Assembly: GCF_023149135.1 (NCBI RefSeq)
Contig: NZ_JAIWJX010000002.1
Coordinates: forward strand, 1 to 64,000
Length of the DNA: 64,000 bases
Direction: 5' to 3'
From: Fictibacillus marinisediminis
GTDB lineage: Bacteria > Bacillota > Bacilli > Bacillales > Fictibacillaceae
The position numbers and the translations under genes were made by a program. Position 1 is the stretch's first letter, and every line of letters begins with the position of its first letter. The notes beneath the pieces are model-generated. The model had not been told where the DNA came from, ran no database searches, and saw only the letters and a program-made list of their open reading frames with translations. Shown piece by piece: positions 15,498 to 36,265 of this stretch.

Positions 15498-15536
15498 ACG
15501 AAGCACTGTTGGATTGATTCCAGCAGTGCTTTTTTG
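15498..15536 (+). terminator. rRNA operon 1 terminator
   Basis: AAGCACTGTTGGA pairs with TCCAGCAGTGCTT and is followed by six T. No tRNA genes follow the 5S gene. Confidence 0.9.
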
Positions 15537-15565
15537 TATGTTTTTTTATGAAAATGATGGGTTTG

Positions 15566-15678
15566 GCATGTAAAGGGTGAAAAGTCGCACGTAAAGTCTC
15601 CATTCCCGCATGTAATCCCTTCAAAGTCGCACGTAAAAGGGCCGAAGCCGCATGTAAACCGTACAAACCCGCAAGTAA
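15566..15678 (+). repeat. 21-bp-phased GCANGTAA array 1A
   Basis: Six copies of the 8-mer GCANGTAA begin at 15566, 15587, 15608, 15629, 15650 and 15671, exactly 21 bp apart. The variable base is T, C, T, C, T, A in order, so GCATGTAA and GCACGTAA alternate. The 13-base spacers are unrelated to each other. The array starts 30 bases after the rRNA terminator. No cas gene, transposase or protein likely to bind it is nearby. No function is known to me; a fixed spacing of two helical turns suggests protein sites on one face of the DNA. Confidence 0.9.
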
Positions 15679-15765
15679 CGATCCCGAATCAACAAAGTAG
15701 AACCTTCAAAATTTCCATAAAACCATCGAGGGATCAACCCAATAAGTATGAAAATGACGTGATAT

Positions 15766-15878
15766 GCAAGTAAATCTTGTCGAATCGCAAGTAACGGCTG
15801 TGAAATCGCAAGTAAACGCTGTCGAACCGCAAGTAAACAAGCCAACGCCGCAAGTAAACCCACCAAATCCGCAAGTAA
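15766..15878 (+). repeat. 21-bp-phased GCAAGTAA array 1B
   Basis: Six further copies, all GCAAGTAA, begin at 15766, 15787, 15808, 15829, 15850 and 15871, again exactly 21 bp apart and in the same orientation as array 1A. It is separated from array 1A by 95 bp, which is not a multiple of 21. The plus strand can be read as a seven-residue periodic peptide (pattern QVNxxxP), but there is no ribosome-binding site and the paralogous array changes residues freely, so coding is unlikely. Confidence 0.9.
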
Positions 15879-15983: not shown

Positions 15984-16937
15984 TCACCCTTTGCGCTGCA
16001 GGAATTGTCCAAGCAAATAGGGTATTTTTGTACGTGTAATGGATAGGAATTCCTTGATAAAAGGGAGATCATTGGTAGTATAGGAATGGAAGATATCACT
16101 CCACCACTCGGTCTCATATCGGCACAGCATGCTCAGGTTATAAAGAACAGCATAATGAATCATGCATTCATTCAATTCTTTCATCTCTCGGCGGCTGCTG
16201 TAGAGATAATATGAACCGTTAGTGTGATAGCTGAATGGTTCGCATTCAAGGGGATGGAGTTCTTTGGAAGAATGGACAATGATATGTTCTTTTGATTCTT
16301 TTAAAAGTTGAAAGGTGATTTCCGGGTTTTCATTGAGAAAGGAGATCAGTCTCCCGGTATTCATATGAAGACCATCCAGCACATCAATGGGAATAGTAAG
16401 CTCCTGATCGTTTCGCATTACTTGAACGTTTATATCTTCGTTATGAACATGAAGAAAAAGATCTCTCAATTCGGGTATAAGAGCCATAATATCATTCATC
16501 TTAAGCTTTTCGCCTTCTGCATGTTTCACATGAAACAATTTAGTGGAAAAGTGATTAAAAAGACCGCTCCTCTGAATCCTCACTTCATCATGAAGAAATT
16601 CATAATACTTCTTTTTACGTTTCCTGGTTGTTACACCGTGGGCAAGAACAGAACTGTTTTCTGGATAGTCAGGGTCAACGGTCAGTATGCACGCCTTTAG
16701 CAGCTGGATCATGCCATAGAACAGCAAAACCGGCTGGAGTTCAGTCGGTGCTGCACCTGCCAGGTCATAATATTTCTTTCCATGTTCCAGAAAATAAATG
16801 AAGGGATAGCAGTTTTGATAGCTTTTGCTTTCTGCCTGCTCAATTCCAGCGTTTTCGTAGCAGCCATAAAGGTATTTTTGCGCCCTGCTTGAGGAGAAAA
16901 AACTGTAGTATAATGACCAGGTATTTGCATCGGACAC
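15984..16937 (-). CDS. yaaC: YaaC-family protein of unknown function
   Basis: A 317-residue protein that matches the Bacillus YaaC family in length, position (between the first rRNA operon and guaB) and orientation (opposite to guaB). It starts with GTG, preceded by GGAGGTG eight bases upstream. There is no signal peptide and no clear membrane segment; it is rich in Tyr, His and Leu and looks cytoplasmic. No catalytic motif is recognisable and I do not assign a function. The gene contains a 16-bp site differing by one base from the parS consensus (16522-16537). Its 3' end abuts the 21-bp array region. Confidence 0.85.
   Translation of the reverse strand: MSDANTWSLYYSFFSSSRAQKYLYGCYENAGIEQAESKSYQNCYPFIYFLEHGKKYYDLAGAAPTELQPVLLFYGMIQLLKACILTVDPDYPENSSVLAHGVTTRKRKKKYYEFLHDEVRIQRSGLFNHFSTKLFHVKHAEGEKLKMNDIMALIPELRDLFLHVHNEDINVQVMRNDQELTIPIDVLDGLHMNTGRLISFLNENPEITFQLLKESKEHIIVHSSKELHPLECEPFSYHTNGSYYLYSSRREMKELNECMIHYAVLYNLSMLCRYETEWWSDIFHSYTTNDLPFIKEFLSITRTKIPYLLGQFLQRKG
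16522..16537. promoter_or_regulatory. parS-like: parS-like site inside yaaC
   Basis: TGTTTCACATGAAACA differs from the Spo0J/ParB consensus TGTTNCACGTGAAACA at one central base, which breaks the palindrome. Such sites cluster near the origin in Bacillus and lie within genes. It may be a weak or degenerate ParB site. Confidence 0.55.
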
Positions 16938-21614: not shown

Positions 21615-21663
21615 AAGCGGAAAATATTGTACATTACTATACAAACATTATTTGTTAAATCAT

Positions 21664-21888
21664 TGACAGGAACCAGTAGCAAAATGATCTTTGCCTAGAG
21701 AGTCGGTGGCTGGTGTAAACCGACCAAAGTCATTTGTGAATCCATCCTTGAGTGGGAAGCTGAAATTATAACGTAAGCTTTCCCGGTATACATTGTCCGT
21801 TATCAATGACAAGGTGGCAGGTGTATTTACTTGCAACTAGGGTGGCAACGCGGGTTAACTCTCGTCCCTTTATAGGGACGGGAGTTTT
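21664..21888 (+). promoter_or_regulatory. T-box riboswitch (tRNA-Ser sensing) of serS
   Basis: The 5' part has the Stem I signatures AGAGAGTCGGTGGCTGGTG and GAATCC; the specifier is read as UCC (Ser) at 21741-21743. The 14-base T-box core AGGGTGGCAACGCGGG is at 21839-21854, and CTCGTCCCT pairs with AGGGACGGGAG before a T run as the terminator. Uncharged tRNA-Ser should stabilise the antiterminator and raise serS expression. Unusually, serS itself begins about 630 bases after the terminator because a tandem repeat lies between them. Confidence 0.92.
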
Positions 21889-21910: not shown

Positions 21911-22425
21911 AAGCGGCGGATTTCTTCGTTGCCTTGATTTCCTCGGATCCTCATTTGGGGTATACCAAACTCCGGTCCTCGGAATCAGCGGCGCCTCGAA
22001 CTCCTTGCTTCTTGTTCGGCTACTCGGGCAAAGCGGCGGATTTCTTCGTTGCCTTGATTTCCTCGGATCCTCATTTGGGGTATACCAAACTCCGGTCCTC
22101 GGAATCAGCGGCGCCTCGAACTCCTTGCTTCTTGTTCGGCTACTCGGGCAAAGCGACGGATTTCTTCGTTGCCTTGATTTCCTCGGATCCTCATTTGGGG
22201 TATACCAAACTCCGGTCCTCGGAATCAGCGGCGCCTCGAACTCCTTGCTTCTTGTTCGGCTACTCGGGCAAAGCGGCGGATTTCTTCGTTGCCTTGATTT
22301 CCTCGGATCCTCATTTGGGGTATACCAAACTCCGGTCCTCGGAATCAGCGGCGCCTCGAACTCCTTGCTTCTTGTTCGGCTACTCGGGCAAAGCGACGGA
22401 TTTCTTCGTTGCCTCGAACTCCTTG
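21911..22425. repeat. 120-bp tandem repeat between T-box and serS
   Basis: Four full 120-bp units start at 21911, 22031, 22151 and 22271. A partial fifth begins at 22391 and lacks most of the unit's centre. The units are identical except for one G/A position eight bases from the unit start (G, G, A, G, A), so the last expansion may have copied a 240-bp pair. 120 is divisible by three, so long reading frames run through it in two plus-strand frames, but neither has a ribosome-binding site. The unit does not resemble any element I know. Near-identity indicates recent expansion. Confidence 0.95.
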
Positions 22426-22515
22426 TTTTTTGAACGGATACCGGGCCGCAATTACGGATTTCTTTAGCTATTTGGGTTTTGTCAGAAAAGGTTATTGATT
22501 AAAGGAGGAAGAAAC

Positions 22516-23790
22516 ATGCTTGATTTGAAATATGTTCGAGCGAATTTTGATGATGTAAAAGAGAAATTGAGCAAACGGGGAGAAGACTTAACAGGCTTGG
22601 ACCGTTTTGTTGAATTGGATGAAAAGCGCCGTGAACTGATTGGTGAAACAGAAACATTAAAGTCTAAACGTAACGAAGTATCCAAACAGGTAGCGGAATT
22701 TAAACGTGAAAAGAAAGATGCCGACCACTTGATCACAGATATGCGTGAAGTGGGAGACCGGATTAAATCCATCGATGACGAGCTGCGCACGGTAGAAGAG
22801 GATCTGAACTACCTGATGCTCACGCTGCCGAACCTGCCTCATGAAAGTGTACCGGTTGGTGAAACAGAGGACGATAATGTACCTGTACGCCATTGGGGAG
22901 ATATTCAGGAGTTTGCATTCGAACCAAAAGCTCACTGGGACTTGGCGACAGATCTAGATATTGTCGATTTTGAAAGAGCTGCTAAAGTAACTGGAAGCCG
23001 TTTTGCTTTTTATAAGGGAGCGGGAGCACGCCTTGAACGAGCTTTGATCAACCTTATGATGGACTACCATGAAGATAAACACGGCTATACTGAAATCTTG
23101 CCTCCTTACATGGTGAACAGAGAAAGCATGACAGGAACTGGGCAACTGCCGAAGTTTGAGGAAGATGCGTTTAAAATCCGCGAAGAAGATTACTTTTTGG
23201 TTCCGACTGCTGAAGTTCCGGTAACCAACCTTCATCGCAATGAAATTTTAACTGCCGAAGAGCTTCCGAAAGGTTATGTTGCTTACAGCGCTTGTTTCCG
23301 ATCTGAAGCGGGATCTGCTGGCCGTGATACACGCGGTCTCATCCGTCAGCATCAGTTTAATAAAGTAGAGCTTGTCCGTTTTGTGAAACCGGAAGAGTCT
23401 TATGAAGAGCTTGAAAAGCTGACAGGCCATGCAGAAAAAATTCTTCAGCTGTTAAAGCTTCCATATCGTGTACTGAGCATGTGTACAGCTGATTTAGGAT
23501 TTACCGCTGCGAAGAAGTACGATATTGAAGTATGGCTGCCGAGCTACGGAACGTACCGTGAAATTTCTTCTTGTTCTAACTTTGAAAGCTTTCAGGCGAG
23601 AAGGGCGCAAATCCGCTTCCGCCGCGAAGCGAAAGGAAAACCGGAATTTGTTCATACACTGAACGGATCAGGACTGGCAATCGGCCGTACTGTAGCTGCC
23701 ATCCTCGAGAATTATCAGCAGGAAGACGGCTCTATCGTCATCCCTGAAGTGCTTCGCCCATATATGGGGAACAAAGAAGTTATCAAGTAA
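22516..23790 (+). CDS. serS: Seryl-tRNA synthetase
   Basis: A class II synthetase that charges tRNA-Ser. The ATG at 22516 follows AAAGGAGG by seven bases and gives 424 residues. Residues about 1-105 form the long antiparallel coiled-coil arm that recognises the tRNA variable arm. Motif 2 ([14 protein letters not shown]) and motif 3 ([11 protein letters not shown]) are intact, as is the TAEVP element that contacts serine. Expression is expected to be governed by the upstream T-box. A tRNA-Ser gene follows about 105 bases downstream of its terminator-proximal end. Confidence 0.98.
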
Positions 23791-35801: not shown

Positions 35802-35838
35802 CGAAGCACTGCTGGAAAGATTCCAGCAGTGCTTTTTT
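35802..35838 (+). terminator. rRNA operon 2 terminator
   Basis: AGCACTGCTGGAA pairs with TTCCAGCAGTGCT followed by six T. The stem has fewer mismatches than in operon 1. Confidence 0.9.
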
Positions 35839-35870
35839 GTATGTTCTTTTTTGTGACAATGATGGGTTTG

Positions 35871-35983
35871 GCATGTAAAGGGTGAAAAGTCGCACGTAAA
35901 GTCTCCATTCCCGCATGTAAACACTTCAAAGTCGCACGTAAAAGGGCCGAAGCCGCATGTAAACCGTACAAACCCGCAAGTAA
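35871..35983 (+). repeat. 21-bp-phased GCANGTAA array 2A
   Basis: Six cores begin at 35871, 35892, 35913, 35934, 35955 and 35976, exactly 21 bp apart, with the same base order (T, C, T, C, T, A) as array 1A. It differs from array 1A at three bases, all in spacers. Confidence 0.9.
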
Positions 35984-36152
35984 CGATTCCGAATCAACAA
36001 AGTAGAACCTTCAAATCCTTATCCATTAGCCACAAAAAGAGGATTTTTAAAGAGAACACGAAAGGATAAAGCCTATACAAACTAATTACTTGTTCTATTT
36101 TTCATAAAACCATCGAGGGATCAACCCAATAAGTATGAAAATGACGTGATAT

Positions 36153-36265
36153 GCAAGTAAATCTTGTCGAATCGCAAGTAACGGCTGTGAAATCGCAAGT
36201 AAACGCTGTCGAACCGCAAGTAAACAAGCCAACGCCGCAAGTAATCCCACTAAATCCGCAAGTAA
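36153..36265 (+). repeat. 21-bp-phased GCAAGTAA array 2B
   Basis: Six GCAAGTAA cores begin at 36153, 36174, 36195, 36216, 36237 and 36258, exactly 21 bp apart. It differs from array 1B at two bases, both in one spacer. The gap to array 2A is 177 bp between last and first core, 82 more than at operon 1, owing to an extra stretch at about 36017-36100. Similarity to the operon 1 locus stops right after the last core. From here to csfB (36266-36513) I see no gene or recognisable signal. Confidence 0.9.

Follow-up and report, generated by a model that had tools for sequence, protein, structure and literature searches.

Phased arrays behind the rRNA operons

The window analysed here is a 64,000-nucleotide stretch of the Fictibacillus marinisediminis chromosome that starts at dnaA and is therefore located at the origin. 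Behind its first rRNA operon, downstream of the 5S gene and a terminator-like hairpin, lie two blocks of short direct repeats, A1 and B1 (Table 1). A sequence-only reading had described both as six 8-mers in strict 21-bp phase, and this description is exact: the GCANGTAA cores of block A start at 15566, 15587, 15608, 15629, 15650 and 15671, with the variable base running T, C, T, C, T, A as claimed, and block B consists of six GCAAGTAA cores with starts from 15766 to 15871, every step being 21 bp. The pair of blocks recurs behind rRNA operon 2, where the gap between A and B is 169 bp compared with 87 bp at operon 1. Core pairs 21 bp apart number 20 in the window against a mean of 0.00 in 100 shuffles, and in a scan of the window at lags of 12 to 60 bp (identity of at least 0.53) the four arrays, which include the two blocks first described, were the only stretches periodic at lags 21 and 42. 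A convergent gene (15984-16937) lies beyond block B of operon 1. The terminator scan at operon 1 returned one site against a shuffle mean of 1.7.

The lag scan gave one further periodic stretch, at lag 58, which falls within a 120-bp tandem repeat (21911-22414; 4.2 units, 99% alike). This repeat sits between a T-box leader (21654-21872) and serS (22495-23790), and a 177-aa mechanical frame runs through it.

Table 1. Array-related features behind the two rRNA operons of the window
Feature	Position	Strand	Basis
Intrinsic-terminator-like hairpin, rRNA operon 1, T-tracts after	15500..15532	+	14 pairs, promoter/terminator scan
Leader ATGAAAATGATGGGTTTG of array A1	15548..15565	+	leader-plus-core pattern, 0 mismatches, match 15548-15573
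Array A1, six GCANGTAA cores, 21-bp step	15566..15678	+	core positions and shuffle test
Leader ATGAAAATGACGTGATAT of array B1	15748..15765	+	leader-plus-core pattern, 3 mismatches
Array B1, six GCAAGTAA cores, 21-bp step	15766..15878	+	core positions and shuffle test
Terminator-like hairpin, rRNA operon 2, ends approximate	35803..35835	+	sequence reading; upstream hairpin also in site scan
Leader GTGACAATGATGGGTTTG of array A2	35853..35870	+	leader-plus-core pattern, 2 mismatches
Array A2, near-copy of A1 behind operon 2	35871..35983	+	core positions and shuffle test
Leader of array B2	36135..36152	+	leader-plus-core pattern, 3 mismatches
Array B2, near-copy of B1 behind operon 2	36153..36265	+	core positions and shuffle test

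Distribution and position on the chromosome

The 4.35-Mb contig carries 28 arrays at 23 sites. Enrichment of the 21-bp step, proposed earlier as a check, is pronounced: three cores at 21-bp steps give 92 matches (51 plus, 41 minus), compared with none for the reversed pattern. Six exact cores are present in 17 arrays and five in eight, with one array each of three, four and seven; several of the shorter arrays contain a degenerate core in phase. An 18-bp leader, ATGAAAATGATGTGTTTT, usually precedes the first core, often with a T-tract before it. The leader-plus-core pattern, allowing up to 3 mismatches, occurs at 21 places in the genome and at none in the control, and 12 or more of the 18 leader bases agree in 45 of 58 arrays of the GCAAGTAA, GTGAGTAA and GCAACTAA classes from assured Fictibacillus sources. 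Over 213 kb, the core-to-core distance is 21 bp in 121 cases and 22 bp in one, none being shorter; among the arrays examined, spacings of 20 and 22 bp exist besides 21 bp. Some arrays resemble copies of one another, as do those at 1.55 and 3.80 Mb, and the array at 1.244 Mb, which resembles the rrn B blocks and follows a 44-bp match to the rrn terminator.

Clustering at rRNA operons, the origin or transcript ends had also been suggested, and the arrays concentrate at all three. Of the 23 sites, 16 have a terminator-like hairpin in the 130 nt before them and two have one downstream; stretches drawn at random from the same loci have one in 42 of 600 cases. The seven sites at which none was found upstream weigh against the platform reading developed below. 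Within 0.9 Mb of dnaA we find 25 of the 28 arrays, where 41% would be expected, and 16 of the 19 non-rRNA sites (P = 2e-4). Assuming that the terminus is at the middle of the contig, 24 of the 28 arrays are co-oriented with replication. The array direction is mostly that of the preceding gene, as judged by mechanical frames, with exceptions at 363 kb, 1.55 Mb and 4.28 Mb and ambiguous cases at 3.85 and 3.93 Mb.

The rRNA operons are not the exclusive hosts, since 19 of the 23 sites lie elsewhere. The genome has nine 5S genes and one match to only the terminator of an rrn operon, the one at 1.244 Mb that directly precedes an array. Five rRNA 3' ends bear arrays of the present core type. Those at 95.6, 168 and 720 kb are followed by tRNA genes, an array being absent in the stretch examined, and the one at 307 kb (L384, L392; G000:C2:307302-307900) has a different array, of a AATTGAGCC-like core at 20-21 bp, behind the terminator. 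The neighbours of the arrays (prfB, spoIIQ, ribulokinase, speE, an LCP-type transferase, an S41 protease and others) share no common function; several neighbour proteins are without any family, and transposase is the best family for none of the 29 flanking proteins scanned.

Spacer composition and helical rhythm

The 13-base spacers had been called unrelated. This is right as regards pairwise identity, which within the 28 arrays is 0.41 compared with 0.37 when GCAAGTAA-class spacers are paired at random. It needs amending as regards composition: positions 17-19 of the unit are rich in A/T, and 94% of 360 units have C or G at position 21. The main composition and frame counts were made on 80 arrays of assured Fictibacillus origin; in their 360 units, positions 6-8 are A or T throughout and position 18 is so in 95%, and positions 21, 1 and 5 are each G or C in at least 94%. 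In otherwise free spacers, an AAA/TTT patch half a repeat from the TAA of the core thus creates an A/T rhythm of 10.5 bp. The power of this rhythm is 2.32, compared with 0.98 (sd 0.05) when the spacers alone are shuffled (71 arrays with five or more cores), and in F. marinisediminis itself it is 2.59 against 0.26 and 0.66 in the flanks.

AAA and TTT tend to alternate between successive spacers in the GCAAGTAA class (56 of 93; shuffle mean 41.7) and the GTGAGTAA class (61 of 77; shuffle mean 40.7), neither value being reached in 3000 shuffles, which suggests that the cores of these two classes are grouped as three pairs. Alternation stays at shuffle level in the GCAYGTAA and G[CA]CAGTAA classes (14/43 and 12/29), which weighs against the platform reading, and in a further class with few data it is 5/9, reached in 131 of 3000 shuffles. 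A Spo0A box, whose consensus is TGNCGAA, was considered for the spacers and discarded: TGTCGAA occurs in 44 of 137 GCAAGTAA, 8 of 26 GCAACTAA and 7 of 102 GTGAGTAA spacers, and is absent from those of the other two classes (0 of 56 and 0 of 39).

Constraint and turnover within the genus

We compared arrays of F. marinisediminis with those of other records in the 12 best-matching pairs, of which at least eight have a partner from Fictibacillus sp. FJAT-27399 and two contain long gaps. Differences amount to 9/549 in cores, 3/216 in leaders, 51/737 in spacers, 59/839 downstream and 45/481 upstream (core versus spacer, P = 3.5e-6). As judged from these alignments, spacers drift at the pace of flanking DNA and core and leader change four to five times less, a contrast in which the conservation of core and leader is flattered by the retrieval of the records via exact cores and their pairing on similarity of the array ±30 nt. 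Counted per position in 11 of the pairs (L181/L102 left out), unit positions 18 and 19 of the spacer have 0 and 1 differences, compared with up to 7 elsewhere.

Fictibacillus congeners keep the leader and the 21-bp step and replace the cores by, for example, GTGAGTAA and GCAACTAA, and other leaders go with the cores GCCAGTAA/GACAGTAA and GAGAATAA; for G002, the core variants are described among the matches listed. A pattern of four GNNNNTAA cores matches 79 times in F. marinisediminis (G000), 29 times in G002, 37 in G003, where seven of the matches are near-perfect tandem repeats, 10 in G004, 50 in G005 and once in G001; the reversed control gives none in G001-G005 and one in G000. In the 80 arrays, 326 of 440 cores match the majority core of their own array. 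Only 27 of the 80 have fully uniform cores, which weighs against the platform reading.

The prfB and spoIIQ loci illustrate the turnover. Six phased cores are present there in F. marinisediminis and two or three in G005; G003 and G004 retain only leader-like pieces, weak at spoIIQ of G004, and G001 and G002 have neither cores nor leader-like pieces. Arrays come and go among congeners, and where they are short or absent at orthologous loci they are therefore dispensable, a further point against the platform reading. At prfB of F. terranigra (L406) the array stops after two cores, and the next frame looks, by eye, like an insertion-sequence protein.

Coding, RNA and other repeat readings

Since 21 is a multiple of three, the arrays could be read as coding, with seven codons per unit. 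On the minus strand, the frame TTA-CTT-GCN runs open through 69 of 80 arrays, which also weighs against the platform reading, and it contains 16 stop-containing units in 435 compared with 40.3 in column-permuted spacers. The depletion of stops extends, however, to four other frames, no frame is open in all 80 arrays, and the differences between spacers lack a third-position excess (17/261 against 16 and 10 of 208). Steps of 20 and 22 bp exist, GCTTATAA-type cores (G102) introduce a stop into the TTA-CTT-GCN frame, an 81-aa frame matched solely a 75-aa frame of the same chromosome, and no conserved protein was found across the one array examined. On frames, substitutions, relatives and step lengths we reject the coding heptad as scarcely credible. 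An RNA element of read-through transcripts, to which the predominant agreement in direction with the upstream gene would lend itself, we hold to be very improbable. Some adjacent spacers can be paired by eye, and hairpins with the core in the loop were at first sight attractive, but folding energy is equal when spacers are swapped between arrays (four classes tested), no Rfam family reaches the cut-off over the arrays, and at 16 of 23 sites a terminator-like hairpin precedes the array. The folding and stop-count tests used 99 arrays, including loci without a source title, with the perfect repeats L273, L274 and L281 of G003 dropped.

Three further candidates were rejected. In an ordinary tandem repeat the whole unit is alike, which is at odds with the spacer identity of the F. 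marinisediminis arrays; at loci outside the Bacillales with the same pattern (n = 31) this identity averages 0.86, and it exceeds 0.6 at 29 of these 31 and is at most 0.6 at 43 of 49 Bacillales loci. A phage origin is opposed by the 16 viral stretches, tandem repeats whose spacers closely resemble one another and of which 10 have an open forward frame. As for a CRISPR-like array, the repeats measure 8 bp, the 13-bp spacers are semi-constrained and common to matched arrays, and the scanned flanking proteins belong to unrelated families or to none.

Comparison with known systems

Operators of the LytTR type (AgrA, ComE) consist of direct repeats of about 9 bp with about 12 bp between them, and thus share the 21-bp step. 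They have two repeats and lie at promoters, whereas the arrays commonly have six cores and lie mostly behind terminators. LytTR regulators themselves were rejected as candidates, their genes numbering 0-4 in array-rich and array-poor genomes alike (22 genomes; 0 in G060), with array richness outside the genus scored by the unspecific GNNNNTAA pattern. Plasmid iterons are direct repeats of about two helical turns, each bound by one protein, in a replication origin; most of the iteron is conserved, whereas the arrays conserve 8 of 21 bp and are found at 23 chromosomal sites. With the REP and BIME elements of enterobacteria the arrays have in common many short, dispersed, extragenic copies (28 arrays at 23 sites), but REPs are palindromic, whereas the arrays start from a leader and repeat directly at a constant 21-bp step, with free spacers in between; their units fold no better with their own than with swapped spacers.

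RemA of Bacillus is presented, in excerpts of its description, as a LytTR-related octamer that is thought to wrap DNA and to give at least six periodic protected stretches, each of 7 bp with 3-bp gaps, modestly conserved and upstream of promoters (PMC8481266). The wrapping proposed there over periodic sites resembles the use that we propose for the arrays, although the RemA step is 10 bp and upstream of promoters and the array step is 21 bp and mostly behind terminators. DNA gyrase binds the intergenic BIME-2 elements, and its E. coli motif, tested as 133-bp fragments, is a phased 10-bp variation in G/C, according to excerpts of PMC6379681; the arrays likewise have phased variation of A/T and G/C at about 10 bp over some 130 bp. 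The nearest functional analogies may be gyrase, at BIME-2 or downstream of E. coli rRNA operons, and the RemA wrapping ring, as far as the excerpts of both sources go. Searches of an open-access library listed no paper that appeared to describe such arrays; within that scope, what is new is the sequence architecture, and the function is a candidate.

Proposed function and its rivals

The sequence-only reading had taken the phasing to fit a cooperative DNA-binding or bending protein. Phasing, conserved cores, free spacers, the 10.5-bp rhythm and the absence of a coding or RNA signal speak for it; the binder itself is putative. Our preferred reading, which we place slightly on the probable side, is that the arrays form a DNA docking or wrapping platform for a putative cooperative protein at the ends of transcription units. 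It builds on what is observed, namely the architecture, the phasing, the slow change of core and leader, and the position, and from these we infer binding, wrapping, an arrangement in dimers and a boundary role. The platform would measure about 130 bp, usually right downstream of the terminator of a transcription unit, and would comprise the 18-bp leader and commonly six direct cores, one per two helical turns. With the additional A/T patch midway, A/T minor grooves would point to one side at intervals of about 10.5 bp. Cooperative binding of the cores along one face, by a putative sequence-specific protein, is most likely; the protein may sit there as three dimers, given the alternating AAA/TTT patches of two core classes, and would bend or wrap the DNA. 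The most likely use would be a boundary behind the terminator that holds or relieves transcription torsion or blocks read-through.

Two rivals bear on this reading. The arrays may be REP- or MITE-like dispersed repeats that serve no function for the host, are tolerated behind terminators and owe the likeness of their cores to their own spreading machinery; this we consider rather unlikely. The many sites adjoining unrelated genes, the copy-like arrays, the coreless leader-like pieces at prfB and spoIIQ of G003 and G004 and the one stray match in G001 are all consistent with it, but cores and leader change more slowly than the spacers, which drift like the flanks, and the flanking proteins scanned point to no transposase. 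Alternatively, the arrays might be hard-wired sites at which gyrase or another wrapping protein clears positive supercoils behind strong operons, the rhythm being primary and the core secondary. The length and rhythm would suit this, as would the arrays at five rRNA 3' ends and, in E. coli, the phasing of the gyrase motif and the enrichment of gyrase cleavage downstream of rRNA operons, which the excerpts of PMC6379681 nevertheless report as not hard-wired in sequence. We regard such sites as improbable, as an 8-bp core that is kept so closely, with variants specific to each class, better suits a protein that reads sequence. If the docking platform is indeed bound, the ends of transcription units in a group of soil bacteria would carry a built-in landmark in these arrays; their fixed step, countable cores and natural variants would suit the study of cooperative DNA wrapping, and they would offer a handle on torsion behind rRNA operons and on shifts of DNA-binding specificity across a genome. 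A passive repeat of this kind would still be a distinct repeat architecture.

Related arrays in other Bacillales

Arrays of GCANGTAA are patchy, being found in 3 of 60 genomes of relatives and 9 of 397 genomes of the order, F. marinisediminis counted. The genera among the matches listed are Psychrobacillus, Fictibacillus, Ureibacillus, Lysinibacillus, Planococcus, Kurthia, Salibacterium, Shouchella, Neobacillus and Metabacillus, and arrays with unrelated spacers thus recur in Bacillales genera besides Fictibacillus. The 10.5-bp A/T power beyond the genus is 1.27 compared with 0.79 (75 arrays at 44 loci, arrays with a spacer identity above 0.6 having been dropped). A four-core GNNNNTAA rule for the whole order was discarded, since it matches 121 of 299 genomes against 109 of 299 for the reversed pattern; in loci taken one per genome, conserved cores with free spacers occur in 8 of 25 for the rule and 6 of 30 for the reversed pattern. 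The GNNNNTAA rule is established only within Fictibacillus.

The order also has 21-bp-phased arrays with quite different cores. The arrays could conceivably belong to a chromosome-wide boundary system of the Bacillales with fast-evolving binders, in which the dialects GCAAGTAA, GTGAGTAA and GCAACTAA share a leader, G[CA]CAGTAA and GAGAATAA go with different leaders, and change tends to be concerted among the cores of one array; we think this extension rather unlikely. Matches of the reversed pattern in G141, G221, G113, G264 and G079 are 21-bp-phased, with the cores AATCGGCG, AATTGAAGG, AATTCATGG, AATCCAGG and AATCAGGG. In Psychrobacillus the cores are spaced by 21 bp in 124 cases and by 20 bp in eight, and the presence of 20-bp steps beside 21 points to helix phase rather than reading frame. 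By eye, the Psychrobacillus loci among L048-L126 often have another leader, with a GGATAAATATCC-like palindrome in it, and an inner core that is often GCAAGTAT.
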